Of a stretch of DNA of 14,119 bases, positions 935 to 14,037 are shown piece after piece (the first letter of the stretch is position 1; every line of letters starts with the position of its first letter). A model generated the notes under the pieces. The model was not told the origin of the DNA and ran no database searches. It worked only from the letters and a program-made list of their open reading frames with translations. Origin of the DNA: Spirochaetes bacterium RBG_16_67_19. Lineage in GTDB: Bacteria > Spirochaetota > Spirochaetia > SZUA-6 > DRHE01. The position numbers were made by a program, and so were the translations under genes. Where the stretch lies: positions 1 through 14,119 of the forward strand of contig MIBK01000028.1 in NCBI GenBank assembly GCA_001829505.1, read 5' to 3'.

Positions 935-950
935 TGGCACGTATTTTGCT
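935..950 (+). promoter_or_regulatory. Sigma-54 (-24/-12) promoter of the transketolase operon
   Basis: TGGCAC-GTATT-TTGCT matches the sigma-54 consensus TGGCACG-N4-TTGCW at every specified position, with GG at 936-937 and GC at 948-949. Standard spacing puts transcription start near 961, only about 2 nt before the GTG start codon at 963. The element lies 70-135 bp downstream of two palindromic activator sites, as expected for an enhancer-dependent promoter. No convincing IHF site was seen in the AT-rich stretch between them. Confidence 0.88.
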
Positions 951-962
951 TAGAACTGATGC

Positions 963-1799
963 GTGGCATATCACTCCGAGGAATCGATTCGGAATCTGGA
1001 AAAGATCGCGCGCGGGCTGCGGCTGAAGTCTCTGGAAATGATTTGCCGCCGGGGGGCAGGGCATCCCGGCGGCTGCCTTTCGGCGGCAGACATCATTGCG
1101 GCTCTGTATTTTCATAAGCTTCGCGTCGATCCGGCTCGTCCTCAAGACCCTGACCGGGACCGCTTCATACTCAGCAAGGGGCATGCCAGCGCCGTGCTGT
1201 ATGCAGCCCTGGCGGAACGCGGCTTTTTCCCCAAGGACGACTTGCAGGATTGGGGCAAGTTGGATTGCCATCTGCAGGGCCACCCGGAGCGGCTGAAGAC
1301 CCCGGGGGTGGATATGACCACCGGGCTCTTAGGGCACGGGGTCAATGTGGGCGCCGGCCTAGCGCTCGCCGCCCGGCTTAACAGGAAGACTTACCGCACC
1401 TATGTGCTCCTGGGCGACGGCGAATGCCAGGCCGGAATCGTCTGGGAAGGCGCCATGACCGCCGCCAAGTTCAGGCTGGCCAACCTGACCTTGATCCTGG
1501 ACAACAACGATGTGCAGTTGGACGGGTTCGTGCACGACATCATGCCACTCCAGCCCATTATCGACAAATGGAAGGCCTTCAACTTTGCGGTCCTGGAGAT
1601 CGACGGGCACAACTTGCGCCAGATCTTGGAGGCTTTGGACGAAGTCGAACATATCCACGATCGCAGCGCGATCATCGTGGCCTACACGGTCAAAGGCAAA
1701 GGAGTGAGTTTCATGGAGAATTCCCACGAATGGCATGGGGCGGTTCCCAGCGCCGAGCAGATGGCCCAGGCGCGCCAGGAACTGCTGGCGGGGGCTTAG
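963..1799 (+). CDS. Transketolase, N-terminal (TPP-binding) subunit
   Basis: This 278-residue protein is the pyrophosphate-binding half of a split transketolase. Visible motifs are GAGHPGG (31-37), SKGHAS (71-76), LGHG (123-126), and the TPP/Mg motif GDGE (151-154) running to NN (181-182), followed by KGKG (244-247) and WHG (257-259). Together with the next gene it would move a two-carbon ketol unit from a ketose to an aldose acceptor in the cytoplasm. GTG at 963 is the only start upstream of the homology, because an in-frame TGA lies at 957-959. There is no Shine-Dalgarno sequence and the predicted sigma-54 transcript begins about 2 nt earlier, so the mRNA may be leaderless or a non-standard codon such as ATT at 987 (after GAGGA) may be used. 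Split transketolases are common in archaea, anaerobes and dedicated carbohydrate clusters. The family is certain; the substrate is not. Confidence 0.95.
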   Translation: MAYHSEESIRNLEKIARGLRLKSLEMICRRGAGHPGGCLSAADIIAALYFHKLRVDPARPQDPDRDRFILSKGHASAVLYAALAERGFFPKDDLQDWGKLDCHLQGHPERLKTPGVDMTTGLLGHGVNVGAGLALAARLNRKTYRTYVLLGDGECQAGIVWEGAMTAAKFRLANLTLILDNNDVQLDGFVHDIMPLQPIIDKWKAFNFAVLEIDGHNLRQILEALDEVEHIHDRSAIIVAYTVKGKGVSFMENSHEWHGAVPSAEQMAQARQELLAGA

Positions 1800-1800
1800 A

Positions 1801-2727
1801 GTGCGAAAGGAACTCGGACAAGCCCTGAGCGAGTATGGATCCCGGAACCAGGACGTTGTGGTCTTGGATGCTGACGTTTCCAGCTCCACCATGACTCGGC
1901 TCTTCCAGCAGGCGCACCCTGATCGTTTCTTCAACGTGGGGATCGCCGAAGCGGGGATGGTCGATACGGCAGTTGGACTGGCCTTGGGAGGGAAGATCCC
2001 CTTCGCCAGCGCTTTCGCCGCCCTGCTGTGCTACCGGGCCCTGGAGCAGATCCGCACCTGCGTGGCCTACAACAACGCGAATGTCAAGCTTCTGGCCGGC
2101 TACGCCGGAGTGTCGGACTTCAAAGATGGGCCTACCCATCACTCCTTGTTCGACCTGGCCGTGATGCGAGCCATGCCGAACATGGCGGTGGTGGTCCCGG
2201 CGGATGGGCCGGAACTGATGGCTCTGATCCCGGAGGTGGCCGAATACCGGGGACCTGTTTATCTAAGGATAAGCCGGGCCGAGATGCCTCGCTTGTTCGG
2301 CGAAAAGGACAAGGTGCGGATCGGCACCGGGCGCGTCCTCGAGGAAGGCCGAGATCTCACCTTGGCGACCACCGGCATAGTTCTGCATCGCGTGCTGGAG
2401 GCAAGGAGAATCCTGGGTCGCAAGGGCCTCTCGGCCCGGGTGGTGGAATTCCACACCCTCAAGCCCTTCGATGAGGCGCTGGCCTGCCGTTGCGCTCAAG
2501 AGACGGGGGCCCTGGTCACGGTGGAGGAGCACAACGTGATCGGCGGGCTGTATGGCGCGGTATGCGAAGCTCTCAGCCAACGCATCCCTGTGCCCGTGCT
2601 GCCTGTGGGCATCCAGGACCGCTACACGTGCACCGCTCCGGATCCGGAGAGTCTGTGGGACTACTGTGGGCTGCGGGCCGAGGACATTGCCTCGAGAGCG
2701 GAAGAGCTGATGCTTCTCAAACGCTGA
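1801..2727 (+). CDS. Transketolase, C-terminal (pyrimidine-binding) subunit
   Basis: This 308-residue partner of the preceding gene begins at GTG 1801, one base after the previous stop. The GGCGGGGG run at the end of the upstream gene serves as ribosome-binding site, and homology starts at this GTG (RKELGQALSEYG), so longer in-frame starts upstream are not used. The catalytic Glu that activates the TPP aminopyrimidine is E50 in FNVGIAEAGM. GPTHHS (110-115) and the Arg of YLRISRAE (154-161) lie where canonical transketolases bind the sugar phosphate. The C-terminal transketolase fold follows, with EFHTLKPFD (216-224) and VEEHN (241-245). The tight spacing implies translational coupling and a heteromeric enzyme. 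Because the acceptor-anion pocket looks intact, a phosphorylated or otherwise anionic (for example sulfonated) substrate is plausible. Confidence 0.95.
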   Translation: MRKELGQALSEYGSRNQDVVVLDADVSSSTMTRLFQQAHPDRFFNVGIAEAGMVDTAVGLALGGKIPFASAFAALLCYRALEQIRTCVAYNNANVKLLAGYAGVSDFKDGPTHHSLFDLAVMRAMPNMAVVVPADGPELMALIPEVAEYRGPVYLRISRAEMPRLFGEKDKVRIGTGRVLEEGRDLTLATTGIVLHRVLEARRILGRKGLSARVVEFHTLKPFDEALACRCAQETGALVTVEEHNVIGGLYGAVCEALSQRIPVPVLPVGIQDRYTCTAPDPESLWDYCGLRAEDIASRAEELMLLKR

Positions 2728-2747
2728 AGAGCCCGGGAGGTGCAGGA

Positions 2748-4145
2748 ATGATTTCCACGAGGAAACCGAGAATCGGCTTGCTCGGCCTGATGCATGGGCT
2801 GTATGACAAGTCACAACCCGATCTGCCTGCGGAGCAGGAGGGCTTCGCGCGCGCATTGGCGGACCGGTTGAAGGATGAAGCCGTGGTGGATTTCCCTGGG
2901 GCAGCCAAGGACAGGGGACTCATCGAGAAGTACGTCAAATACTTCAATGAAAAAGAATATGACGGGATTATGGTGGTGAATCTCTTGTACAGCCCCGGCA
3001 TGAGAGTCGTTCAGGCACTCCAGAAGAATACGCTTCCGCTGCTATTGGCCAATGTCCAGCCGCTTCCAGGGGTGACGAAGGAGTGGAACTGGAGGTTGCT
3101 CACCACCAACCAGGGCATTCACGGCATCCAGGACACGGCCAATATGATCGCGCGCGCTGGCTTGCACCCCACCATCGTAACCGAGGATTGGGAAAGCGGA
3201 GCCTTCAAGTTCATCTTCGCCGATTGGGCCATGGCCGCTAGCGCCTTCCAGCGATTGAAGGGAATGAAGGTGGCGATCTTCGGCAGGATGCCCGATATGG
3301 GGGATATTCTGGGCGACGACGCCGCTTTCTACAGGAAACTAGGGCTCGAAGTCAACCACGAGACCATCGGGGCGGTCTACCGGTTGATGGAAGGTTTGAG
3401 CCCGAAAGAAATCGATATGCAGGTGGCGGAGGACAGAAGGAACTTCGCCGTAGACGCCCAGCTATCGGCCGAAAGCCATCGCTACGCCGCTGCGCTGCAG
3501 CTGGCCTTCGAGAAGTTCATGCAGGAAAGAGGCTATTCGGGTTTCACCGCTTTCTTCAACATCTTCAAGGAGGATGGGCGCTTCAAGCAGCTACCGATCC
3601 TGGGAGCTTCCAATCTCCTGGCCAAGGGCTTTGGTTATGCAGCCGAGGGCGACACGAATGTGCTGGCGCTGACGGTTATCGGCCACTTGCTGGTCGGCAA
3701 TCCTCACTTCACCGAGATGTATTCTCTCGATTTCGGAAGAGACGCCGCGCTCCTGAGCCATATGGGAGAAGGAAACTGGAAGGTCGCCCGCAAGGACAGG
3801 CCGATCAGGCTGATCGATCGGCCCCTGGACATAGGAGAACGCGACAATCCGCCTACTCCCGTCTACAGCGCTCAACCCGGGCGGGCGACATTGCTTTCCC
3901 TGGTGGCGGTCCAGGGGGAGATGTACCGTCTGGTGGTTTCGCAAGGGACCATCCTCGATAGCGAGGAGATTCCCGGAATACCGATGAACTATTCCTTCTT
4001 CAAGCCCGATTCCGGAATCCGCAAGAGCATGAATACCTGGTTGGAATGCGGTGGCACTCATCATCAGGTGCTGTTTTTGGGAGATCAGGCGCGAAGGTTC
4101 AAGGTGCTGTGTGACATCGCCCGGATCGAATACGTCGAGGCCTGA
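2748..4145 (+). CDS. L-arabinose/L-fucose isomerase family sugar isomerase
   Basis: This 465-residue protein has the three-domain architecture and length (about 470-500) of the AraA/FucI family. All four Mn-binding positions of E. coli L-arabinose isomerase can be matched by eye: E300 in AAEGD, E323 in FTEMYS, H338 in LSHMGEGN, and H438 or H439 in GGTHH. It should therefore be an active metal-dependent aldose-ketose isomerase. GGGAGG lies about 8 nt before ATG 2748; a longer in-frame extension to 2490 overlaps the transketolase gene and is rejected. Overall similarity to true AraA looks modest outside the motifs, so the substrate need not be arabinose. As the only aldose-ketose isomerase beside a transketolase and with no kinase nearby, it may convert the incoming sugar to the ketose that the transketolase uses. 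Members of this family are, as I recall, also used as sulfoquinovose isomerases in some sulfoglycolytic operons. Confidence 0.88.
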   Translation: MISTRKPRIGLLGLMHGLYDKSQPDLPAEQEGFARALADRLKDEAVVDFPGAAKDRGLIEKYVKYFNEKEYDGIMVVNLLYSPGMRVVQALQKNTLPLLLANVQPLPGVTKEWNWRLLTTNQGIHGIQDTANMIARAGLHPTIVTEDWESGAFKFIFADWAMAASAFQRLKGMKVAIFGRMPDMGDILGDDAAFYRKLGLEVNHETIGAVYRLMEGLSPKEIDMQVAEDRRNFAVDAQLSAESHRYAAALQLAFEKFMQERGYSGFTAFFNIFKEDGRFKQLPILGASNLLAKGFGYAAEGDTNVLALTVIGHLLVGNPHFTEMYSLDFGRDAALLSHMGEGNWKVARKDRPIRLIDRPLDIGERDNPPTPVYSAQPGRATLLSLVAVQGEMYRLVVSQGTILDSEEIPGIPMNYSFFKPDSGIRKSMNTWLECGGTHHQVLFLGDQARRFKVLCDIARIEYVEA

Positions 4146-4148
4146 AAA

Positions 4149-4775
4149 ATGCGGATCGCGGTGGTGAATGAAGCCAGTGCCGCAGACAGGAACGGCGACA
4201 TCCTGGCGGCCCTGAAGGACAGGGGCCATCAGATCATCAATGCCGGGATGACCAAGAGTGGTACCAAACCGGAGCTGCTCTACATCCACACCGGTCTGAT
4301 TACCGCCATCCTGCTCAATCTCGGCCGGGTGGATTTCGTGGTTGGCGGCTGCGGGACAGGTCAGGGCTACCTGAACGCGGCCATGCAGTATCCGGGGATT
4401 GTCTGCGGCCACATCCTGGACGCCCTGGACGCTTGGCTGTTCGCCCAGATCAACGGCGGCAACTGCATTGCTTTGGCCTTGAACCAGGGTTACGGCTGGG
4501 CGGCGAACGTGAACCTCCGCTTCATTTTCGATCAGCTTTTCAGCGTGGAGAGGGGGGGCGGGTACCCGGCGCATCGCAAGGAAGCGCAGCGAGAGGCCCG
4601 CTTGCTGCTGGAAAGGATATCGGCCCTGGCGCACCGGCCCTTCGCTGAGATCATTGCCGCCTGCCCCGACGAACTAATCCACCCTGTATTGGCTTATCCC
4701 GGGATATGGGAGCTGATCGACGTGGAATCCATTGCCGATTCACAGCTGAAGGACGCCTTTTGTAGAAGGAGGTGA
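4149..4775 (+). CDS. RpiB/LacA/LacB family sugar isomerase with C-terminal extension
   Basis: The 208-residue product carries the RpiB hallmark GGCGTGQGYLNAA, in which C68 aligns with the catalytic Cys, followed by the ribulose-isomerase-like core GIVCGHILDALDAWLF and GNCIALAL. RpiB proteins are usually about 150 residues; this one continues about 55-60 residues with a charged helical tail (140-208). The start ATG 4149 follows the previous stop by 3 nt, and GAGG about 8 nt upstream inside the preceding gene is a reasonable ribosome-binding site. Known members isomerise ribose-5-P/ribulose-5-P, galactose-6-P/tagatose-6-P, tetrulose phosphates, or (as I recall) 4-deoxy-4-sulfoerythrose. Behind a split transketolase, the likely job is to turn the shortened aldose product into a ketose so that it can donate again to the transketolase. 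The exact substrate is inference. Confidence 0.87.
   Translation: MRIAVVNEASAADRNGDILAALKDRGHQIINAGMTKSGTKPELLYIHTGLITAILLNLGRVDFVVGGCGTGQGYLNAAMQYPGIVCGHILDALDAWLFAQINGGNCIALALNQGYGWAANVNLRFIFDQLFSVERGGGYPAHRKEAQREARLLLERISALAHRPFAEIIAACPDELIHPVLAYPGIWELIDVESIADSQLKDAFCRRR
4766..4775 (+). promoter_or_regulatory. Near-perfect Shine-Dalgarno that decides the start of the Gfo/Idh gene
   Basis: AAGGAGGTGA complements the 16S rRNA tail over 10 bases. It ends at the stop codon of the upstream gene, and its AGGAGG core is 8 nt before GTG 4781. The in-frame GTG at 4772 lies inside this Shine-Dalgarno sequence, so 4781 is the preferred start. Confidence 0.8.
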
Positions 4776-4780
4776 GAACT

Positions 4781-5752
4781 GTGTCTGAGAAGCCTATCGG
4801 AATTGCCTTCATCGGCGCGGGAGAGGTCTCGTTGCTGCACCACAAGGCGCTCAAGGCCATCCCCGGAGCGCGGCTGGTGGGGTTGTGGAACCGCACGGCC
4901 AAGCTGGCGACCGAACGGGCAGCGGCGTACGGCTGCAAGCGATATGACACGCCGGAACAGCTCGTGGCTGACCCGGAGGTGCAGGCGGTATTCGTTATGA
5001 CGAACCTCGAAACGCACCTTCAGTTCGTGAAACTGGCGCTGGAGGCGGGCAAGCAGGTGCTGGTCGAGAAGCCGCTGGGGTCGACGGTGGCCGAAATCGA
5101 GGAAATGAAGTCCACGGCCCAGCGCTGCGGCCGGATTTGCGTTCCTGGGCACAACATGATCCACGAGGACAGCCTGGCCCGGGCCCACGAACTGATAAAG
5201 ACCGGCAATATTGGAAAGGTCGTTTCCTGCTATGTGATGTACAATATACACCACTCCGAGGAACGCGCCTCGACCCTGCCCGGCATGGTCCGTCATATCC
5301 TGACGCATAACCTGTACACGATGATCTATCTGGTCGGGCGGCCGACCCGCGTCACCGCGCTCAAGGCGACGCGGCACTACCAGAAGCTGACGAAAGAGGA
5401 CCTCGCCATGTGCCTACTGGAGCTGGAGAATGGCGGCCTGGCCCACCTGTGCGCCTCCTTCGCTGCGGACGACCTTGCCGCCGACCCATGGACCTTCCTG
5501 GTCAAGGTGATCGGCACGGCGGGCACCGTGCGCTACACCTATCAGGATTGGGTGGAAGTCAAGAAGGGCATTTCCCATTCGCATACCTATACCGCCTACC
5601 AGCAAACCATCACCAATGAGGACCGTTACTTCGTGGAGGTCTGCCTGAAGGGCGGCGCGCCGCGCTCCTCCCTGGAGGACGCCATCGCCGCACAGAAGAC
5701 GGTCGAAGCGGTCGAACGCTCCATCAGCAAAGGAATCACCGTCGAGATATAA
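4781..5752 (+). CDS. Gfo/Idh/MocA family NAD(P)-dependent oxidoreductase
   Basis: The 323-residue protein (starting MSEKPIGIAFIG) has an N-terminal Rossmann fold with IGAGE (11-15), the family EKP motif in VLVEKPLG (94-100), and a C-terminal alpha/beta substrate domain from about residue 125. In the usual GALLDLGIH-like motif, this protein reads MVRHILTH (169-176): the His (H176) aligns, but the common Asp is replaced by H172. Family members oxidise or reduce sugar hydroxyls, and some are NAD-dependent glycosidases (GH4-like chemistry, for example GH109 and the sulfoquinovosidase family GH188), so a glycoside-cleaving role is possible. It is last in the operon and converges on the sensor kinase gene with only 5 bp between the two stop codons and no visible terminator hairpin. 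The reaction and substrate are not determined by the sequence. Confidence 0.88.
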   Translation: MSEKPIGIAFIGAGEVSLLHHKALKAIPGARLVGLWNRTAKLATERAAAYGCKRYDTPEQLVADPEVQAVFVMTNLETHLQFVKLALEAGKQVLVEKPLGSTVAEIEEMKSTAQRCGRICVPGHNMIHEDSLARAHELIKTGNIGKVVSCYVMYNIHHSEERASTLPGMVRHILTHNLYTMIYLVGRPTRVTALKATRHYQKLTKEDLAMCLLELENGGLAHLCASFAADDLAADPWTFLVKVIGTAGTVRYTYQDWVEVKKGISHSHTYTAYQQTITNEDRYFVEVCLKGGAPRSSLEDAIAAQKTVEAVERSISKGITVEI

Positions 5753-5757
5753 ATCTC

Positions 5758-7620
5758 CTAGCGCTCATCTTTCTTACGAGGAAAGCGCAAGGTGAACTCG
5801 CATCCGCAGCCGTCCAGGTTGCGCACCGCGATGGAGCCATCGTATTTTTTTATGATTCCATAACTTACGGAAAGCCCCAGGCCCAGATTGCCGTGCATTT
5901 CCTTTTTCGTGGAATAGAAGGGCAGGAAGACGTCGTTGAGATTATGACGCTTGATGCCCGTGCCCGTATCCTGGAAGATGATTTCCACCAGGGATGAATC
6001 TGCCCCGTCTTTTTCTCCCGTCTGGATATTCAGCCTGCCACCCGAAGGCATGGCCTCAAAGCTGTTTTTCATGAGATTGAGAATCACCTGCTTGATCTCG
6101 GTCCTGTTGACCCTCAGGAAGATGGGATTGCTTTGCTTGTTGAAGGAAATTTGTATGTTCTTGTACTTGGCGTTGTATTTCACCAGGTTGATGATGCTTT
6201 CAATCAGCTCGTTCAGCTCCACCGGTTCGACCTGATGCTTGCTGCTGTCCGCGAAGGTGATCAGGTTGCTTACGATTTGCGAAATGGAATTGATCTCCTC
6301 CTCCAGGCTATTGACGGTCCTTGCGACGATCTTGTTCTTGGAATGGAATTTCAGATAGCGGATGTAGTTGCAGATGATTTCTAGCGGGTTGTTGATCTCA
6401 TGGGCAACCCCGGCGGATAGCAGGCCGATCGAGGCCAGTTTCTCCGACAGGACCACCTGTTCGCGCAGCTTCTCCCGCTCAGTGACGTCCTCGATGATGA
6501 TGTAGTAGCCGATCAGGAAGGATTCGTCGTAGATCGGGTGCGTCTTGATATTGGTGATCGACTCGGACTCGGTTCGATGCAGGGGGAGGTTGTAGAATGT
6601 CTGGCCCTGCTGCTTGCCGAGGGCGCCCTCAATGAGGCCGCAGGCCTCCCGGTTGTCCTTATCCACCAGGAACAGCTCTTGGAAAGGCATATTGAGGTAG
6701 GAGGATTCCTCGATGTTGAAGTACTGCTTAGCGTACTCGTTGATCAGCTTGATCTTCCCGTGGTGGTCGACTACGATCAGGTTCACCGGGAGTTTGATGA
6801 GCACCGCCTCGTTGTACTTCAGAAGGCTGTAGAACTCCTGGTTGGCGTTCTCCAGGCTGTCGTTGCCGCTGATCTGCGTGTAGGCCAGCTTGATCAGGTT
6901 GATTTTGTCGATGTTCTTCACCGAATCGGTGATCAGGATCTCGCCGTTCTTGATGATGGACACCTTATCGGCGAAGTTGTAGATGTCGTCGATGCGGTGG
7001 GTGACGAAGATGATGGACATTCCGGTCTGCTTCAGGTCTTTGAGTTGCTGGGTCACCTTGTTCAGCATGGGAGCGGTGAGCTTCTGCAGGGCTTCGTCGA
7101 GGATCAGCAACCGGGGCTTGTTGAACAGGTGCTTCAGGATGTCCACCAGGACCCGATCGGAGAGCTTCATATCCCTGAGCAGGATGTTGGGGTCCAGGGG
7201 GAAATCCCGCTCCCGCAGGTAGGCCCGGGCTACTTCCAGGTGATGCTTGCGGCTGATGAAGGGGTGCGAAGCGATGCCGCGGTTGTCGAGGAACAGGTTT
7301 TCGGCCACCGTGAAGTTGTCCACCACGGGGTTCTGCTGGGTGACCATTTCGATCCCCAGGTTGCGGGCCTTGCCTTGCGCCATGGAGACCAGAGTCCGGT
7401 TGCCGATGAGGAACTTCCCCGAGTGCGGCTTGAGGAAGCCGCTCAACATCAGGCAGAGGGAGGTCTTGCCGGCGCCGTGCTCTCCGACAATGGCGTGGAC
7501 TTCCGAGCGGTGGATCGTCAGGTTGATGTCTTTTAAAACTCTCAGGGTGTCGTAGTAGAAAGAGATGTTCTGTAGCTCTAGCAGCGGTTCGCCGAACAGC
7601 TCAGCGCATTGTGAGCCCAT
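5758..7620 (-). CDS. ABC ATPase-PAS-histidine kinase fusion (soluble sensor kinase)
   Basis: This 620-residue protein combines domains that normally occur separately. Residues about 13-245 form a complete ABC ATPase: Walker A GEHGAGKTS (46-54), Q-loop Q95, Walker B LLILDE (171-176) and switch His in FVTHR (H208). The ABC signature (LSGGQ or IGGQQ) is replaced by LSDRV (153-157), and DEPT has become DEAL. Residues about 266-380 form a PAS domain ending in IIIEDVTERE. The HisKA domain carries the phospho-acceptor H407 in GVAHEINNPL, followed by HATPase_c with N-box NLMKNSFEA (515-523), DTGTGI (551-556), FLPFYSTK (565-572) and GLGLGLS. No transmembrane segment is seen. The gene overlaps the upstream response-regulator gene by 20 nt, so the pair is co-translated. 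By eye the ABC domain resembles nucleoside/BMP-type importer ATPases (VDILKHLF) rather than the neighbouring ATPase. The inferred role is sensing the state of a transporter or nucleotide and phosphorylating the regulator. Confidence 0.93.
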   Translation of the reverse strand: MGSQCAELFGEPLLELQNISFYYDTLRVLKDINLTIHRSEVHAIVGEHGAGKTSLCLMLSGFLKPHSGKFLIGNRTLVSMAQGKARNLGIEMVTQQNPVVDNFTVAENLFLDNRGIASHPFISRKHHLEVARAYLRERDFPLDPNILLRDMKLSDRVLVDILKHLFNKPRLLILDEALQKLTAPMLNKVTQQLKDLKQTGMSIIFVTHRIDDIYNFADKVSIIKNGEILITDSVKNIDKINLIKLAYTQISGNDSLENANQEFYSLLKYNEAVLIKLPVNLIVVDHHGKIKLINEYAKQYFNIEESSYLNMPFQELFLVDKDNREACGLIEGALGKQQGQTFYNLPLHRTESESITNIKTHPIYDESFLIGYYIIIEDVTEREKLREQVVLSEKLASIGLLSAGVAHEINNPLEIICNYIRYLKFHSKNKIVARTVNSLEEEINSISQIVSNLITFADSSKHQVEPVELNELIESIINLVKYNAKYKNIQISFNKQSNPIFLRVNRTEIKQVILNLMKNSFEAMPSGGRLNIQTGEKDGADSSLVEIIFQDTGTGIKRHNLNDVFLPFYSTKKEMHGNLGLGLSVSYGIIKKYDGSIAVRNLDGCGCEFTLRFPRKKDER

Positions 7621-8935
7621 ACTTTTCGATCTTATTATACAGCGTTTTCCTGCTCACGTTCAGCAATTCCGCGGCCTTCTTCTTGTTGTAGCCCGCCTTT
7701 TGCAGCATGCTCAGGATCAGCTCCTTTTCCATCTTGTCCCGGACGTTCGACGGTGCCTCGGAGGATTCCTGCTGCAGAAGGCCCGGCGGCAGGTCGGCGA
7801 TGTCTACAAGATCCTTGAGGGAGACGGCGACAGCGTAGTGCAGGGTATTCTTCAGCTGCCGCACGTTGCCTGGCCAGTCGTAGCTCAGGAAGAACTTCAT
7901 CACCTGCTCGGAGAGCTGCTTCGGCTTCTTCGAGTTGCCCGACTGGCAATCCTGCAGGAAATGGGCGACCAGCCAGGGGATGTCCTCCCGGCGCTGGCGA
8001 AGCGGCGGTATGTTCAAAGTGGCGGCATTCAGCCTGTAGAACAGATCCTCCCGGAACTTCTGCTCGGCGAGCAGCACTTGCAGATTCCTGTTGCTGGCCG
8101 CGATGAAGCGCACGTTCATCTTGATTGCGGTCTTGCCGCCGACGCGGCGCAGCTCCTTGTCCTGCAGCGTCCGCAGGATCTTCGCCTGAATGGAAAGAGG
8201 CATATCCCCGATCTCGTCGAGGAAGAGGGTGCTGTTGTGGGCCCGCTCGAACACTCCCTGGTAGTTGGAATCCGCTCCGGTGTAGGCGCCCTTGTCGTGA
8301 CCGAACAGCTCGTTGTCCAGGAGTGATTCGGCGAAAGCCGAGCAGTTGATCTTCACAATCTTGTTGCAGGACTGCGGGGAACTGGAATGGATGAAATCGG
8401 CCAGCAGCTCCTTGCCCGTTCCGCTCTCCCCGCAAATCAGGATGGGCAGGTCAGTGGCGGCCAGCTGCCTGGCCTTACGGCACAGCTCCAGCAGCTGGCT
8501 GGACTGAGTGACCAGCCGGGAGGAGAAATCCGACAAACGGCCCCGGAACTTGAGGTTCTCCTCCTCCAGCTGTTTCAGCCGTATGGAGTTTTTCACCACC
8601 GTTTCCAGCTTGTCGAAATTGATGGGCTTCTGCAGATAGTCGAAGGCCCCCAGCTTGATCGATTCCACTGCCGTCTCGATCGTGGCGTAGGCGGTGATCA
8701 TGATGATCGGCACCTTGCTGTTCAGCGATAGGAAGTGCTTCAAGACGTCGATGCCGTTCTCTTCCCCGAGCTTGACGTCCAGAATTACGGCGCTAATCTT
8801 TTCATTCAGAAACAGGCGGATGGCCACAGAGGAGCTGGTGGCCGTATGGCTGATATAGCCAAGCTCGCGAAAGTTCTGGGCCAGGCTTTCGCAGACTTTG
8901 CTCTTGTCGTCGATGATCAGAATCTCATGTTCCAT
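7601..8935 (-). CDS. NtrC-type sigma-54-dependent response regulator
   Basis: The 444-residue protein (from ATG 8935, MEHEILIIDD) has a receiver domain with acidic pocket D9/D10, phospho-acceptor D53 (ILDVKLG) and K103 (QKP). A short coiled linker follows (119-150), then an AAA+ domain with Walker A GESGTGKE (169-176), GAYTGA (216-221; the sigma-54 contact loop, Tyr in place of the common Phe), Walker B TLFLDEIGD (236-244) and Arg fingers in FREDLFYRL. A Fis-type helix-turn-helix (417-441) lies at the C terminus. It should hydrolyse ATP to open sigma-54 promoters once phosphorylated by the adjacent kinase. An alternative ATG seven codons upstream (8956) is possible and has a slightly better GGGA; homology starts at the 8935 ATG. 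The family is present twice over in the context: two sigma-54 promoters and matching palindromes lie beside the two neighbouring operons. Paired operators lie directly upstream of this gene, suggesting autoregulation. Confidence 0.96.
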   Translation of the reverse strand: MEHEILIIDDKSKVCESLAQNFRELGYISHTATSSSVAIRLFLNEKISAVILDVKLGEENGIDVLKHFLSLNSKVPIIMITAYATIETAVESIKLGAFDYLQKPINFDKLETVVKNSIRLKQLEEENLKFRGRLSDFSSRLVTQSSQLLELCRKARQLAATDLPILICGESGTGKELLADFIHSSSPQSCNKIVKINCSAFAESLLDNELFGHDKGAYTGADSNYQGVFERAHNSTLFLDEIGDMPLSIQAKILRTLQDKELRRVGGKTAIKMNVRFIAASNRNLQVLLAEQKFREDLFYRLNAATLNIPPLRQRREDIPWLVAHFLQDCQSGNSKKPKQLSEQVMKFFLSYDWPGNVRQLKNTLHYAVAVSLKDLVDIADLPPGLLQQESSEAPSNVRDKMEKELILSMLQKAGYNKKKAAELLNVSRKTLYNKIEKYGLTMR

Positions 8936-8937
8936 GT

Positions 8938-8956
8938 GTGTAGACGAATTATACAT
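8938..8956. promoter_or_regulatory. Distal upstream activator site of the ABC importer operon (imperfect)
   Basis: GTGTAGA-CGAAT-TATACAT differs from the palindrome at 8969-8987 by one base in each half-site. It lies 31 bp from that site, the same separation as the pair at 801-850. It also falls between the two possible start codons of the response-regulator gene. Confidence 0.6.
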
Positions 8957-8968
8957 TCCCGAATGGCT

Positions 8969-8987
8969 GTGTATAATAAGTATACAC
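8969..8987. promoter_or_regulatory. Proximal upstream activator site of the ABC importer operon (perfect palindrome)
   Basis: GTGTATA-ATAAG-TATACAC has two perfect 7-bp arms. Its centre (8978) is about 94 bp upstream of the -24 GG of the sigma-54 promoter at 9071-9086, matching the 95 bp seen for the transketolase operon. On the other strand it covers the likely -10 box of the response-regulator gene. Confidence 0.75.
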
Positions 8988-9070: not shown

Positions 9071-9086
9071 TGGCATATTTCTTGCT
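9071..9086 (+). promoter_or_regulatory. Sigma-54 (-24/-12) promoter of the ABC importer operon
   Basis: TGGCAT-ATTTC-TTGCT has the invariant GG (9072-9073) and GC (9084-9085) at the correct spacing. It shares TTTGGCA before and AACTG after the core with the promoter at 935-950. The predicted start is near 9097, giving a leader of about 46 nt before ATG 9143. Confidence 0.87.
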
Positions 9087-9142
9087 TCTAACTGCCTAAG
9101 GGTGATCAACCCTACAAACCTTTATTCTGAGGAGGATCAGCG

Positions 9143-10177
9143 ATGAAACGAACCATCAAGGTGCTGGCCATCCTGGGGGCGCTGCTTCTGCTGGCGAGCA
9201 TGACGGCGACGGCGCAGGCGGGCAAACAAATCACCATCGCCTATGTCACCAACGGTCCCTACACCTTCTGGACCTATGCCCACGCCGGCTGCCTCAAGGC
9301 GGAGATGGAGTTCGGCGTCAAAGTGAATTTCTTCAAGCCGCCGAGCGCGACGCTGGAAGAGCAGAAGCGCTTCATCGAGACTCAGATGGCCAAGGGGGTG
9401 GACGGGATGGCGATCAGCGTTATCGACCCCGAAAACATGACCCCCTTCATCAACGAGATCTGCGCCAAAATCCCCGTGGTCATGTTCGACAGCGATGCTC
9501 CGAAAAGCAACCGCAAGGCCTACATCGGCATGAGCAACTATGCGGCAGGGAGGCTTGCCGGGCAGAAGATCAAAGAGCAACTGCCCAACGGGGGAAAACT
9601 GGTGATCTTCGTCGGCCGGCTGGACGCCCAGAACGCCGTGGAGCGCCGCCAGGGGATTATCGATGAGCTGCAGGGCAAGCCCTATGCCGCCCAGTATCCA
9701 GGCAAGATGACGCCGCAGGGCAGGGTGAACGCCGGCAAGTGGACCATCCTTGATACGCGCACCGACGGCGGTGATGAAAGCCGCGCCAAGGGCAACGCGG
9801 AAGACACCCTGGTGAAGTACCCTGATCTGGATCTGATGATCGGTCTGTGGAGCTACAATACCCCGGCCATCATCAGCGCGGTGCAGGACGCCGGGAAGCA
9901 GGGGAAGATCAAGATCATCGGCTTCGACGAAGAGGTGGTGGTGCTGGGCGGGATCAAGGATGGATACGTGGCCGGCACCATCGTCCAGAACCCCTATGAG
10001 TACGGTCGGACCAGCATCGAGATACTCTACAAGCTCATCAAGGGAATGAACGCCGGAATCCCGCCCGACAAGCTGGTGGATGTGCCTGCGCGGATCATCA
10101 CCGCGGACAAGGTCGACGTTTTCATGGACACTCTCAACAAGCAGTTGGCGGTGGGAGAGTTCTTCGAAGTGAAGTAA
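9143..10177 (+). CDS. Periplasmic sugar-binding protein of a ribose-type (CUT2) ABC importer
   Basis: The 344-residue precursor begins with a classical Sec signal peptide: KRTIK, hydrophobic VLAILGALLLLASM, and a TATAQA cleavage site before GKQ (mature from about residue 27). There is no lipobox Cys, so it should be a free periplasmic protein in a two-membrane cell. The mature part is a type-I periplasmic binding fold of the RbsB/peripla_BP_4 class, with GVDGMAISVIDPE (85-97), FDSDAP (115-120), VGRLDAQNAVERRQG (158-171) and IIGFDEE (258-264). GAGGAGG lies upstream of ATG 9143. It would capture a monosaccharide or derivative and deliver it to the ATPase and permease encoded downstream. It is the first gene after a sigma-54 promoter and is followed by a stable hairpin, consistent with higher expression than the rest of the operon. 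The ligand cannot be read directly. Confidence 0.93.
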   Translation: MKRTIKVLAILGALLLLASMTATAQAGKQITIAYVTNGPYTFWTYAHAGCLKAEMEFGVKVNFFKPPSATLEEQKRFIETQMAKGVDGMAISVIDPENMTPFINEICAKIPVVMFDSDAPKSNRKAYIGMSNYAAGRLAGQKIKEQLPNGGKLVIFVGRLDAQNAVERRQGIIDELQGKPYAAQYPGKMTPQGRVNAGKWTILDTRTDGGDESRAKGNAEDTLVKYPDLDLMIGLWSYNTPAIISAVQDAGKQGKIKIIGFDEEVVVLGGIKDGYVAGTIVQNPYEYGRTSIEILYKLIKGMNAGIPPDKLVDVPARIITADKVDVFMDTLNKQLAVGEFFEVK

Positions 10178-10260: not shown

Positions 10261-11769
10261 ATGACGGAAAACCAGGCAGCGGGGCTGCTGGAGATGCGGG
10301 GCATTACGAAATACTTCCCGGGCATCAAAGCCCTGGATCAGGTCGACTTCGATCTGGAACGCGGCGAAATCCAGGCGGTCATCGGGGAGAACGGCGCGGG
10401 CAAGAGCACTCTGATGAAGGTCCTGGGCGGCATCCACCTGCCGGAGATGGGCACGATCCGCCTCGATGGCCGGGAAGTGGTGATCGATTCAGTGCAGACC
10501 GCCAACAAGCTGGGGATATCCTTCGTGCATCAGGAATTGAACCTTTCGGATAACCTGGACATCGCCACCAACTTGTTCCTGGGCCGGGAGCCGCGCGACG
10601 GCTTCCTGCAGCTGATCGATCGGAAGAAACTGTACCGAGACACCGAGGAAGTTCTGCAGCGTATCGATTTGCATTGCTCTCCCCGCCTGCTGGTGCGCGA
10701 CCTAACCATCGGCGGCCAACAGATGATCGAGATCGCCAAAGCCCTCTCCATCGCCGCCAAGATCCTGATCATGGATGAACCTACCAGCAGCCTCTCCTGC
10801 AGCGAGTCGGAGCGGCTGTTCCGAGTGATCCGGGAGCTGCGCTCCCAGGGCGTGAGCATCATTTACATCTCGCACCGGCTCGGCGAGGTGAAGGAGGTCG
10901 CAGACCGGGCTACAGTCCTCCGCGATGGACGCGTTTCCGGACACCTGGCCAAAGAAGAAATCAGCCAGGAGAGGCTGGTGAAGCTCATGGTGGGCAGGGA
11001 CATCGAGAAGTTCTACCACCACGAGCATGAGGCCAGTCGAAAGCCGGTTTTCGAAGTCCGGGATCTGGTTGTCCCGGAACACCCCAAGGAGCGAATTAGT
11101 TTCACCATCCACGAGGGGGAGATCGTGGTGCTGGCAGGTCTGGTCGGCGCCGGCAGAACGGAGCTGGCCCACGCCCTGTTCGGTATCGTGAAACCCCTGG
11201 GCGGGCAGATTTTGCTGGATGAGCGGCCCATCCGAATCGGCAGCCCCCAGGACGCCATGCGGGCGGGGATCATCCTAGTTCCTGAAGATCGCAAGCTGCA
11301 TGGGCTGATCATGGAGATGTCGGTGGAAGCCAACATCACGCTGGCCAGCCTGGATCGCTACCAGAAGATGAAGGTGATCCGGTTGGACGCGGCCCGGGCG
11401 GTGGCAAGGGAAATGGTCGGAAAGCTGGATGTGCGACTGCGCAGCATCGACCAGCAAGTGGAGTCACTCTCCGGCGGGAACCAGCAAAAGGTGGTGCTGG
11501 CCAAGTGGCTGTGCTTGAATCCCCGGGTACTTCTCCTTGACGAACCGACACGCGGGATCGACGTGGTTGCCAAGGAGGAAATATATCGCTTAATGGAGCG
11601 TTTGGCTTCGCAGGGTGTGGCCATTCTGGCGATTTCCAGTGAGATGCAGGAGGTGCTCGGCATCGGGGACCGCATCCTGGTGATGCACGAAGGCCGGATC
11701 TGCGGAGAATTGACCAAGGAGCAGTCCAGCGAAGAGGCGGTGGTGCACCTGGCCACAGGAGGGAAATAA
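10261..11769 (+). CDS. Double-domain sugar ABC importer ATPase (RbsA/MglA type)
   Basis: The 502-residue protein has two ABC domains in tandem, the normal length of the RbsA/MglA/XylG family. Domain 1 has Walker A GENGAGKST (42-50), Q-loop in FVHQELNL (89-96), signature LTIGGQQ (148-154), Walker B ILIMDEPTSSL (168-178) and switch His in YISHR (202-206). Domain 2 has the family's typical degenerate Walker A GLVGAGRTE (293-301), signature SLSGGNQQK (402-410) and Walker B VLLLDEPTRGID (423-434). It powers uptake by the permease encoded next, sitting on the inner face of the membrane. AAGGGG precedes ATG 10261. Its stop overlaps the permease start (TAATG), so the two are translationally coupled. 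All key residues of domain 1 are intact, in contrast to the ABC domain of the nearby kinase fusion. Confidence 0.96.
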   Translation: MTENQAAGLLEMRGITKYFPGIKALDQVDFDLERGEIQAVIGENGAGKSTLMKVLGGIHLPEMGTIRLDGREVVIDSVQTANKLGISFVHQELNLSDNLDIATNLFLGREPRDGFLQLIDRKKLYRDTEEVLQRIDLHCSPRLLVRDLTIGGQQMIEIAKALSIAAKILIMDEPTSSLSCSESERLFRVIRELRSQGVSIIYISHRLGEVKEVADRATVLRDGRVSGHLAKEEISQERLVKLMVGRDIEKFYHHEHEASRKPVFEVRDLVVPEHPKERISFTIHEGEIVVLAGLVGAGRTELAHALFGIVKPLGGQILLDERPIRIGSPQDAMRAGIILVPEDRKLHGLIMEMSVEANITLASLDRYQKMKVIRLDAARAVAREMVGKLDVRLRSIDQQVESLSGGNQQKVVLAKWLCLNPRVLLLDEPTRGIDVVAKEEIYRLMERLASQGVAILAISSEMQEVLGIGDRILVMHEGRICGELTKEQSSEEAVVHLATGGK

Positions 11770-12815
11770 TGAAACGCATTGCCGGAATCGCAGTGCTGTT
11801 GGTGGTGGTCATGCTCATCACTACGCTGATCGACACGACCTTCATCAAGGGCTACAACATCATGAACATCATGCGCTGGTCCGGGCTGTTCGGTATCCTG
11901 AGCCTGGGCGAAGCTTTCCCCATCATGACGGGCGGGATCGATCTGTCGGTCGGCTCCATTGCCGGGCTCGTCGGAGCGCTGTCGGCGAACCTAATTCGGA
12001 TGCGGGAGATGCCGATTGCCCTGGCCCTGCCGATCTGTCTCGCGCTGTCGGTCCTGATGGGCTTCCTGCACGGTTTGCTGGTGACGAAGATCCGGATGCA
12101 GCCCTTTGTCGTCACTCTCTGCGGGCTGTTCATATATCGGGGGATGGCCCGCTTCCTCATGCAGGATGTGACCCAAGGCTATGGCAATGCGTTTCTGGGT
12201 TTGAAGTTCCTGGCCCACGGGAAGGTCCCTCTGGCCTTCTGGCCCGCGGGGCACGCGCCCAAGTTCATCGCCACCTGGTCCCTGCCCATGCCCTTCATCA
12301 TCCTCGTCCTGGTGGGGATCATCCTGGCGGTGTTCTTGAACCGCATGGTATACGGCCGCTACATCCTGGCCTTGGGGCGAAACGAGCAGGCGGCTCGTTT
12401 CAGCGGCATCAACACCAACCGCATGACCATCGTAGCCTACATGATCTCCAGCACCTGTGCTGGCCTGGCGGGGATTCTTTTTTCCCTGGATTTGAATACC
12501 GTGCAGCCTTCCACGGCGGGCAATATGTACGAGCTGTACGCCATCGCGGGCTGCGTGGTAGGGGGCGTGAGCCTCAAGGGCGGGGAAGGCAACATTCTGG
12601 GGGTGATCATCGGAACGGCAATCGTGCGGGTTCTATATAACGCCATTAACATCCTGGGCATTGCCACGACGCTCGAGTTCGCGGTGGTCGGGCTGGTCAT
12701 CCTGGTTGGAGTGGGCGCCGACGAGGTCATCAAGAGCTTCACCGCTCGACGTCGGATCGCGGAGGTGCGCGGCGTGCAGGCAAAAGGAGGCGTGGGAACC
12801 TCCACCGCTGCCTGA
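11769..12815 (+). CDS. Ribose-type ABC importer permease (RbsC family)
   Basis: The 348-residue, strongly hydrophobic protein is the inner-membrane channel of the importer, in the BPD_transp_2 family. It has a hydrophobic N-terminal helix (about 5-21), the conserved MTGGIDLSVGS (53-63), repeated hydrophobic segments consistent with about 8-10 transmembrane helices, the cytoplasmic ATPase-coupling loop ALGRNEQAARFSGIN (201-215), and AIAGCVVGGVSLKGGEG further on. Only one permease gene is present, so the channel is presumably a homodimer, as in RbsC. The start ATG overlaps the preceding stop by 1 nt. The operon ends here; the following sequence is a decayed gene on the other strand, so no further transport or kinase gene belongs to this transcript. 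The family is secure; the transported sugar is not known. Confidence 0.95.
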   Translation: MKRIAGIAVLLVVVMLITTLIDTTFIKGYNIMNIMRWSGLFGILSLGEAFPIMTGGIDLSVGSIAGLVGALSANLIRMREMPIALALPICLALSVLMGFLHGLLVTKIRMQPFVVTLCGLFIYRGMARFLMQDVTQGYGNAFLGLKFLAHGKVPLAFWPAGHAPKFIATWSLPMPFIILVLVGIILAVFLNRMVYGRYILALGRNEQAARFSGINTNRMTIVAYMISSTCAGLAGILFSLDLNTVQPSTAGNMYELYAIAGCVVGGVSLKGGEGNILGVIIGTAIVRVLYNAINILGIATTLEFAVVGLVILVGVGADEVIKSFTARRRIAEVRGVQAKGGVGTSTAA

Positions 12816-13194
12816 GGCGCAAGCAGGGCGTACTGCTCGCTCACCCCCTGCTCGAAGATCAGGCCCCGCTCGCCGGGGACGCGCACCCGCACGCGCTGTC
12901 CGTCGGCCACCGTCGCGCGGGTGCATGTGGATGTGCCGGGCGGCGGCGATCAGTCCGCTTTCCAGCTCCACCTGCCCCGCGCTCCCGACCAGCGTGACTC
13001 CAGGCGTGCCGTCCAGGCGGCCGGACTCTCGCAGCGGGGCTTCCAGTCCCAGCACCAGGGCGTTGCCCAGGGCCGGCGATGGTCAGGTCCCGCCACTTGC
13101 TCAAGGAGTGACCCTGGCCGAAGAGCGCCTCCACGTGCCGGGACTCCAGGTGCACGTGGATGTCGGACATGGCGATGGGCAGCATGGTTTTCAT
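12816..13194 (-). pseudogene. pduL: Remnant of a PduL-type phosphate acyltransferase, frameshifted and truncated
   Basis: This 454-base stretch between the permease and the hydrolase has no intact gene. Three minus-strand frames line up in order with a PduL-type phosphotransacylase. From 13194, PIAMSDIHVHL, HVEALFG and KWRDLTIAGPGQ correspond to the N-terminal zinc-binding HVHL region. From about 13064, in another frame, LGLEAPLRESGRLDGTPG, VTLVGSAG and ARHIHMHP correspond to the middle and second His motif. From 12910, in the third frame, VADGQRVRVRVPGERGLIFE corresponds to the C-terminal part. From memory of the family, about 40-45 residues between the first two blocks are missing, a few are lost before ADGQ, and the end is cut at the permease gene. 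PduL makes acyl-phosphate from acyl-CoA, and in some bacteria works inside bacterial microcompartments. Several independent lesions point to a true pseudogene rather than one sequencing error. Confidence 0.8.
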
Positions 13195-13230
13195 GGCACC
13201 CCAGGCGCTCTGCGGTCAAGGACGACGCCC

Positions 13231-13249
13231 GCGCCCGGCCGACGGGCGC
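13231..13249 (-). terminator. GC-only hairpin downstream of the hydrolase gene
   Basis: GCGCCCG and CGGGCGC form a perfect 7-bp stem around a 5-nt loop, 21 bp after the stop of the minus-strand hydrolase gene. No U-run follows, so intrinsic termination is doubtful; it may only mark the transcript end. Confidence 0.25.
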
Positions 13250-13269
13250 CTCCCGGGGGGTCTTCCGCG

Positions 13270-14037
13270 CTACCCCTTCAGGGCGCCGGCCAGGAAGGCC
13301 ACCATCTGCCTCCAGGCCTGTTCGGCCGCGGCGCCGTTGCGGTAGGTATTGCTCTTCACGAAGGCGTGCCCCACGCCCGGGTAGAGGGTGATGGTGGAGC
13401 TGATGCCCCGGGACTTCAGCGCGTTTTCGAAAGCCCGCACCTGGGCCACCGGGATGCTCGAGTCCTGCTCCCCGTAGATGCCCAGCACCGGGCCGGAGCG
13501 GCCCATGCTGCCCAGGCCGGAGGCTTCCTGGATCGGGCCGCCCCCGTAGAAGATGACCGTGGCAGCCAGGTTGGCCTGCCGGGTGGACTGGAACATGGAC
13601 TGGGTCCCGCCGAAGCAGAAGCCCACCGTGGCCACCCGGGCCGGATCGGCCAGGGGGTGGGAGCGCAGGAACTCCAGGGCCGCGTCCAGGTCCGCGGCGA
13701 TCTGCTCGCGCGGTGTGCCGGTAACCTGCTTCATGGCCTGCTCCGGGGTGGTGGCCACGCTGCCGCGGAAACCGTCCGGGGCCAGCACCAGGTAGCCTTC
13801 CTTGGCCAGGGCGTCGGCCAGCAGGGTGATGTCGCGGTTCAGGCCCCACCACTCGTGGATCATCAGCACTGCAGGGTGGGCGCCGCTGCCCGGGGGCAGA
13901 GCCAGGTAGCCCTGCAGGGTGACCCCGCCGGGTCCGGGATAGGTGACGTAAGTCCTGCCCGGCTCCATGATGTCCTGGCCAAATACCGTGGTCGCGGCGA
14001 GAAGCGCAAAGAGAAGAATTGGTGATTTCAAGATCAT
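13270..14037 (-). CDS. Exported dienelactone-hydrolase-family protein
   Basis: The 255-residue alpha/beta hydrolase starts with a signal peptide (MILKSPILLFALLAATTVFG, cleavage near residue 20-22, before QD), so it is probably periplasmic. The dienelactone-hydrolase triad is complete: nucleophile C141 in GFCFGG (139-144), D192 in GEQDSS and H224 in GVGHAF. The associated Glu is E62 in IHEWWGLN (60-67). Family members hydrolyse dienelactones or other esters and lactones; the physiological substrate here is unknown. GGGAGGT directly abuts ATG 14037, which is too close for efficient initiation. The TTG two codons later (14031) is 7 nt from GGAGG and may be the real start, with no effect on the signal peptide. 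It lies beyond the pduL remnant, has high GC content and is transcribed towards the importer operon, so a role in the same pathway is not implied, though an extracytoplasmic ester-cleaving step cannot be excluded. Confidence 0.92.
   Translation of the reverse strand: MILKSPILLFALLAATTVFGQDIMEPGRTYVTYPGPGGVTLQGYLALPPGSGAHPAVLMIHEWWGLNRDITLLADALAKEGYLVLAPDGFRGSVATTPEQAMKQVTGTPREQIAADLDAALEFLRSHPLADPARVATVGFCFGGTQSMFQSTRQANLAATVIFYGGGPIQEASGLGSMGRSGPVLGIYGEQDSSIPVAQVRAFENALKSRGISSTITLYPGVGHAFVKSNTYRNGAAAEQAWRQMVAFLAGALKG

Follow-up and report, generated by a model that had tools for sequence, protein, structure and literature searches.

The kinase gene at positions 5758-7620 of the window, as we call the whole 14,119-nucleotide stretch of DNA from Spirochaetes bacterium RBG_16_67_19 analyzed here, raises the question of what the ATPase domain of an ABC transporter does at the head of a sensor kinase. 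Transporters are known to signal to sensor kinases mainly in two ways: the two are separate proteins that contact each other, or the kinase is fused to an entire membrane transporter. The reading frame of the kinase runs along the minus strand (7620 to 5758), begins with ATG, and encodes 620 amino acids with no internal stop; the plus strand across 5758-7620 is broken by internal stops. The gene and the features it encodes are as follows.

5758-7620, minus strand: ABC-PAS-HisKA-HATPase_c sensor kinase, 620 amino acids (open reading frame, Pfam, alignment)
6883-7590, minus strand: ABC nucleotide-binding domain (NBD) of the CUT2 NBD1 type, residues 11-246 (Pfam, NCBIfam, tree)
7462-7485, minus strand: Walker A GEHGAGKT, residues 46-53, in which His replaces the Asn of CUT2 NBD1 domains (sequence, conservation)
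7150-7164, minus strand: LSDRV, residues 153-157, at the ABC signature position (sequence)
7087-7110, minus strand: Walker B LLILDEAL, residues 171-178 (sequence)
6472-6795, minus strand: PAS domain, residues 276-383 (Pfam)
6247-6423, minus strand: HisKA domain with phospho-acceptor H407, codon 6400-6402 (Pfam, alignment)
5773-6105, minus strand: HATPase_c domain, residues 506-616 (Pfam)

The original prediction, made from the sequence of the window, was that an ABC ATPase domain is joined in a single frame to PAS, HisKA (H407), and HATPase_c domains, and four Pfam domains above their cut-offs bear this out: ABC_tran at residues 29-178 (E = 1.1e-19), PAS_4 at 276-383 (E = 4.1e-8), HisKA at 400-458 (E = 1.2e-7), and HATPase_c at 506-616 (E = 2.1e-17). 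The Walker A and Walker B motifs, the Q-loop glutamine (Q95), the switch histidine (H208), and H407 were all found as first read, and the ABC_tran match together with the CUT2 NBD1 lineage described below agrees with a transporter-type ATPase domain serving as the input domain. H407 lies in AGVAHEINNPLE and was invariant across 118 aligned sequences; with a phospho-acceptor histidine in its HisKA domain and with HATPase_c, the protein has the makeup of a HisKA sensor kinase, and its predicted role is autophosphorylation and phosphotransfer to the adjoining regulator. The highest hydrophobicity over 19 residues was 1.34 (Kyte-Doolittle), so no membrane segment is evident and the kinase appears to be soluble, as had been predicted; 25 of 162 kinase relatives have at least one stretch at 1.6 or above on the same scale. 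The hydrophobicity scan also gave no pair of transmembrane segments with a short linker of the BceS type in the window kinase, and Pfam detected neither a membrane transporter domain nor a second NBD in the chain, which consists of one ABC_tran stretch and then PAS-HisKA-HATPase_c.

The window belongs to a draft genome of 3.8 Mb (245 contigs, 83.67% complete), a state of assembly that gives some ground for the reading that a misassembly or frameshift fused two separate genes. A protein search scored 7,999 candidates and yielded at least 2,442 matches, of which the best 120 of 2,442 were taken and 118 were aligned; two shorter proteins without the ABC domain (P0035 and P0062) were left out of the alignment. 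At least 117 other relatives (118 aligned sequences with that of the window) carry the same fusion and a conserved linker between the NBD and the PAS domain, one of them in a single-contig genome, and the linker was still conserved where identity to the window kinase fell to 47%. On this evidence we rejected the artifact, which is vanishingly improbable; a frameshift or misassembly between residues 245 and 266, which would have refuted the original prediction, is contradicted by a linker common to 118 sequences.

The window kinase was the sole family match in its own genome at E <= 1e-90. Full-length copies were present in 14 of 41 near genomes and in 17 of 392 genomes sampled from the phylum Spirochaetota (the window's own counted in both), and several genomes had two or three copies of the fusion. 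A scan of named contigs gave at least 80 loci. Five of them contain the full one-frame fusion (three spirochaete records, KSB3, and Acidobacteria), L014 has a broken kinase frame, and in the remaining 74 the match is confined to the kinase part. Pfam confirmed ABC_tran, HisKA, and HATPase_c in L145, L009, L013, L147, and L143, with the PAS domain under the cut-off in L013 and borderline in L143. In L014 (positions 2646-4139; Spirochaetaceae isolate BB7), the ABC domain has a CUT2-like QQQMVEIAKAL stretch and the kinase frame ends within the HATPase part, possibly through a sequencing error or gene decay. The member sequences are already public, with single members labeled "histidine kinase" or "ATP-binding cassette domain-containing protein". 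In the open-licence literature we found no description of the family or its circuit, nor of any kinase with an ABC ATPase domain; this agrees with the original prediction, which knew of no characterized kinase of the same design, and is weak evidence of absence. The available portion of the main text on the KSB3 genomes remarks on many two-component systems and does not contain the terms "histidine kinase", "ABC transporter", or "ATP-binding" (PMC4312070).

The source of the ABC domain was indicated both by family models and by a tree. Among the 25 NCBIfam families listed of 240, all ABC-type models matched the kinase NBD with the N-terminal half of two-NBD importer ATPases (LsrA, YtfR, AraG, AlsA, MglA, RbsA, XylG, and others). 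In a tree of 143 NBDs, which was a quick one without bootstrap and with some long branches, the kinase NBDs (61 of 61) formed one clade (SH-aLRT 98) beside some NBD1 sequences and apart from the NBD2 clade (SH-aLRT 99). Thus, the fusion probably had a single origin and, judged from these relationships, the ABC domain of the kinase is a captured NBD1 of a CUT2 (ribose-type) importer ATPase. Like RbsA, AraG, and LsrA, it is of the CUT2 NBD1 lineage and keeps the NBD1 motif pattern; unlike them, the kinase has one NBD followed by kinase domains rather than two NBDs per chain, has LSDRV in that single NBD rather than an intact LSGGNQQ in a second one, and has exchanged the signature and D-loop for new conserved motifs. 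Two kinase subfamilies were distinguished, I (141 counted) and II (21 counted), among 162 kinases in which the same protein may be present under two names; all 117 database relatives were assigned to subfamily I, with only 15 of them placed in the tree. The subfamily II members L014 and L162 retain the CUT2-like QQMVEIAKAL stretch.

The kinase NBD was compared with the motifs of the neighboring importer ATPases. Their NBD1 has the Walker lysine in 44 of 44 cases and no LSGGQ, commonly with an AQQQ-like stretch instead. LSGGNQQ is present in all 44 of their NBD2 domains, only 3 of which have the Walker lysine; thus, these CUT2 ATPases would hold one standard site, made of the NBD1 Walker A and the NBD2 signature. 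The kinase NBD carries the NBD1 half of this pattern. In subfamily I, the Walker lysine was kept in 140/141, the Asp in 141/141, the Glu in 133/141, and the switch His in 128/141 sequences, and the corresponding counts in subfamily II were 21/21, 20/21, 19/21, and 7/21; from these we infer that ATP binding by the kinase NBD is under selection and that hydrolysis is not always needed. The Walker A His-for-Asn replacement is shared by 138/141 members of subfamily I and 17/21 of subfamily II, and in subfamily I the conserved motifs LSDR and EALEKL stand in place of the signature and D-loop. Several ATP-site residues are lost in the kinase copy of L147. Among the NBD1 coupling-region residues, Q95, V105, and N108 are kept in the kinase and the Glu after the Q-loop glutamine is not.

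These patterns bear on the original prediction. LSDRV does occupy the signature position, but the loss of the ABC signature is not by itself a mark of inactivation, since CUT2 NBD1 domains are also without LSGGQ. The IGGQQ with which it had been compared is indeed the sequence of the window importer NBD1, but CUT2 NBD1 domains are generally AQQQ-like. The kept residues agree with the proposal that the domain binds ATP without forming a normal hydrolytic sandwich, and a homodimer of kinase NBDs would be unable to complete a standard ATP site; pairing with NBD2, however, could in principle complete one.

The original prediction had suggested a database search for the same domain order and its gene neighborhoods; in the surroundings analyzed here, the fusion recurs nearly always beside a CUT2 importer. 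The neighbors in the window are listed below.

7601-8935, minus strand: NtrC-type response regulator, with the ATG at 8935 chosen from sequence (open reading frame, Pfam, NCBIfam)
9143-10177, plus strand: CUT2 binding protein, Peripla_BP_4 (Pfam)
10261-11769, plus strand: CUT2 ATPase with two NBDs, NBD2 having Walker A GLVGAGRT and LSGGNQQ (Pfam, NCBIfam)
11769-12815, plus strand: CUT2 permease, BPD_transp_2 (Pfam)
963-5752, plus strand: sugar-catabolism genes, namely split transketolase, arabinose-isomerase-like, RpiB-like, and Gfo/Idh/MocA (Pfam, NCBIfam, dyad and sigma-54 site)

Up to 20 kb was collected around 41 full-length copies in other genomes and the window's own, six named loci were added, and profiles built from the genes of the window served to classify the neighboring frames. 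Removal of duplicates (L010 and L011, contigs of L150 and L157) and of L014 with its broken kinase frame left 45 loci, which are partly dependent because some are paralogues or close relatives. An NtrC-type regulator adjoins the kinase in 43 of the 45; L143 has no regulator, and L169 was scored as without one though a regulator overlaps its over-long kinase frame. Taking first possible start codons, the regulator stop and the start of the kinase are separated by -26 to +12 bases in 40 of the 43. Within 6 kb of the kinase, the permease was found in 41/45 loci, the binding protein in 43/45, and the CUT2-type ATPase in 40/45, and at least one CUT2 component was found in 44/45, the exception (L141) lying near a contig end. 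In L160, the binding protein is the only importer part within 6 kb, and the contig continues. For comparison, the window genome has 62 other HATPase_c places, and 4 of these have a BPD_transp_2 permease within 6 kb, a figure somewhat lowered by the contig ends of the draft; 63 such places were counted with four sub-cut-off matches excluded, and some of the 63 are perhaps not kinases. By length, the importer ATPase is a complete two-NBD protein in 38 of 45 loci. Single-NBD importer ATPases of about 300 amino acids with LSGGQ or MSGGQ were observed in the subfamily II loci L143 (5619-6497) and L147 (934-1869). The window permease matched no solved structure by sequence at E <= 0.001. Beyond the importer, a dienelactone-hydrolase family protein (13270-14037, minus strand) has no evident link to the module, and a 454-amino-acid open frame overlapping it (12661-14025, plus strand) was taken as a chance frame in GC-rich DNA.

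The regulator of the window contains a receiver, a sigma-54 activator (AAA+) domain with GAYTGA, and a Fis-type helix-turn-helix (Pfam), which is the composition of an NtrC-type regulator; that of L145 likewise has the receiver, the sigma-54 AAA+ domain, and the Fis-type helix-turn-helix. The loop pattern GA[FY]T[GND]A was present in 34 of the 43 adjacent regulators and unmatched in nine. The window regulator overlaps the kinase start by 20 bases, and its listed frame extends to a TTG at 9109. Candidate control sites in the window are the following.

8939-8955, unstranded: dyad with two mismatches to TGTATAANNNTTATACA, just before the regulator start codon (dyad search)
8970-8986, unstranded: dyad with one mismatch, 84 bases before the importer sigma-54 site; probable regulator site (dyad search)
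9071-9086, plus strand: sigma-54 -24/-12-like site directed toward the importer, whose binding-protein ATG follows after 56 bases (weight matrix)
833-849, unstranded: perfect dyad TGTATAAGAATTATACA, followed after 85 bases by the sigma-54 site at 935 (dyad search)
935-950, plus strand: sigma-54 site, exact TGGCACG-N4-TTGC, the highest-scoring of the window (weight matrix, pattern)

The promoter test used a weight matrix and 200 single-base shuffles per shared region and covered 35 of the 45 loci, with eight lacking a divergent importer gene and two lacking a regulator set aside. A sigma-54-like site was found on the importer strand in 31 of the 35 testable loci (p <= 0.01) and on the regulator strand in 3 of 35; the former are predicted promoters facing the importer. 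Over the whole window, sigma-54 patterns were no commoner than chance (4 vs 3.9 expected, and 4 vs 5.4 in a second count), and we rejected such counting as evidence. A third sigma-54-like site, at 1188 on the minus strand inside the transketolase gene, scores 15.4 vs 14.1 for the importer site and was taken as chance. The sites before the importer and the catabolism genes are credible because of their position, score, and dyads. Three dyads with at most two mismatches occur in the 14-kb window vs 0.01 expected, all in the two promoter regions. The relative L132 has the same double arrangement: it contains two dyads and just two sites that score 12 or more, paired at distances of 84 and 86 bases, one pair lying before the importer and the other before a stretch in which same-strand relatives of the window's isomerase (56%) and RpiB-like protein (71%) follow further on. 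Perfect dyads exceeded shuffles in only 7 of 44 loci; the dyad is convincing in the window and L132 and is no general mark of the regulator.

Genes 963-5752 are a probable second target of the regulator, and we take it that one regulator would control the import and catabolism of a single sugar, which the gene content suggests to be a pentose or similar. The regulator may also control its own gene, since its start codon directly adjoins the dyad at 8939-8955. Only 13 bases separate the transketolase GTG at 963 from the -12 element of the 935-950 site, so translation may begin further downstream, perhaps at a rare start codon that follows GAGGA at 978. The RpiB-like protein (4149-4775) scores above the cut-off of NCBIfam NF006753, which bears the name "hypothetical protein", and its conserved place in the second operon of L132 suggests a role as a sugar-phosphate isomerase.

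Ancestry, neighborhood, the importer-facing sigma-54 sites, the kept ATP site, and the NBD1 half of the motif pattern favor a reading toward which we cautiously lean: that the captured domain acts as an NBD1 mimic that docks on its own importer, reads the importer's state, and controls the kinase, which would be the sensor of a conserved sugar-uptake control module. In this scheme, the NBD1 mimic would bind ATP and dock on the permease coupling site, the kinase dimer offering two copies, as many as the permease dimer needs; alternatively, it would dock against NBD2 of the importer ATPase. The state of the importer, set by the sugar-loaded binding protein, would alter the ATP-bound mimic, the change would reach H407 through the conserved linker and then the PAS domain, and the phosphorylated regulator would bind the upstream dyads and activate the sigma-54 promoters of the importer and, in the window, of the sugar-catabolism operon. 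We infer docking on the importer and an ATP-dependent signal to H407 from sequence comparison; neighborhood and ancestry give circumstantial support to docking on the permease and to pairing with the importer ATPase. The reading is weakened by the only partly kept coupling-region residues, the ATP-site losses in L147, the missing switch His in most of subfamily II, the presence of the binding protein alone within 6 kb in L160, and the patterns of divergence. A further step is possible but doubtful, namely that the permease serves both as a pump with its own ATPase and as a transmembrane sugar receptor when two kinase NBD1 mimics replace that ATPase, with ATP binding rather than hydrolysis setting the kinase.

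Kinase and importer hardly co-diverged (rho 0.01-0.20, 35 loci). For the NBD, rho was 0.15 with the permease (3/500 permutations), 0.08 with the ATPase (54/500), and 0.17 with the binding protein (1/500), as compared with 0.77 with the regulator (kinase-regulator range 0.77-0.83) and with 0.51 between ATPase and permease (0.38-0.51 among the importer parts). Given the kinase core (34 loci), the partial correlation was marginal for the permease (97/2000 permutations), with 141/2000 for the ATPase; by subfamily, the NBD-permease value was 0.34 in I (21/1000) and 0.09 in II (290/1000), a mixed picture. Co-divergence was thus too weak to carry a claim of contact and was rejected as evidence for it. 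Since the kinase co-diverges with the regulator and hardly with the importer, the module probably moved between importers, a pattern as compatible with docking on a surface shared among CUT2 importers as with no docking. The latter would hold if the ABC domain alone read cytoplasmic ATP/ADP and gated the kinase, with the importer a mere regulated target, and the far better retention of ATP-binding residues than of the switch His in subfamily II speaks for such an energy sensor, as does the weak co-divergence. We nevertheless consider it rather unlikely, because it leaves unexplained why a CUT2 NBD1 was the source, why CUT2 importers stay neighbors, and why two or three copies in a genome lie beside different importers.

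The complementary motifs, with the Walker lysine in the kinase NBD and LSGGNQQ (44/44) but seldom the lysine (3/44) in NBD2, would also suit a kinase NBD that takes the place of NBD1 against NBD2 of the importer ATPase, completes an ATP site, and senses turnover or free ATPase rather than the permease. This is close to the reading we prefer, but makes the ATPase the only partner; it is unlikely, as the NBD1 linked to NBD2 in the same chain would compete strongly, the ATPases of L143 and L147 have a single NBD, and the dimer-interface motifs (signature and D-loop) are changed in the kinase. That the ABC domain instead powers or brakes the permease as a transport subunit, kinase activity being a by-product of the transport cycle, would account for the kept Walker residues and, in subfamily I, the catalytic Glu (133/141) and switch His (128/141); yet the kinase NBD has no standard signature, and 38 of 45 loci encode a two-NBD ATPase, complete by length, for the same importer, which makes a transport role quite improbable.

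The module resembles several known systems in part. Among the 25 NCBIfam models listed of 240, the kinase core and the sigma-54 regulator scored best with AtoS and AtoC, below the curated cut-offs. AtoS is membrane-bound with a periplasmic sensor; in the window kinase, the ABC domain takes the place of that sensor. In XylFII-LytS, likewise a two-component system controlling a sugar ABC importer, a sugar-binding protein contacts the kinase from outside the cell, whereas the contact proposed here would be intracellular and through the ATPase domain. In BceRSAB-type modules, too, a two-component system works with an adjacent ABC transporter, which acts as the sensor (PMC3023708); there, BceS is intramembrane-sensing and the ATPase is a separate subunit, whereas the window kinase is soluble and carries an ATPase domain itself. 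The nearest concept, as far as the available portions of these papers describe it, is CbrA, which together with SLC5/STAC kinases is counted among the "transceptors" that link nutrient uptake to gene control (PMC13022988, PMC7096432, PMC9100948). CbrA also combines a transporter part with PAS, DHp, and catalytic kinase domains in one polypeptide (PMC13022988), but that part is a whole SLC5 membrane transporter with 13 transmembrane helices, plus STAC, whereas the window kinase fuses a soluble ABC ATPase domain and leaves the importer separate.

The fusion of an importer ATPase part to a kinase apparently happened a single time, and its descendants, which by record titles span three phyla or more, have stayed next to sugar importers although these importers changed. 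With the design nearly always beside a sugar importer, these cells probably sense the importer itself in timing its production. If the docking is true, the working state of the importer would be the signal, and the sugar of each kinase could be read from the adjacent importer. L132 (7946-9010) and L137 (1991-2980) each have an additional CUT2 permease gene immediately next to the kinase on the opposite strand, outside the importer operon, which could encode a dedicated docking partner.
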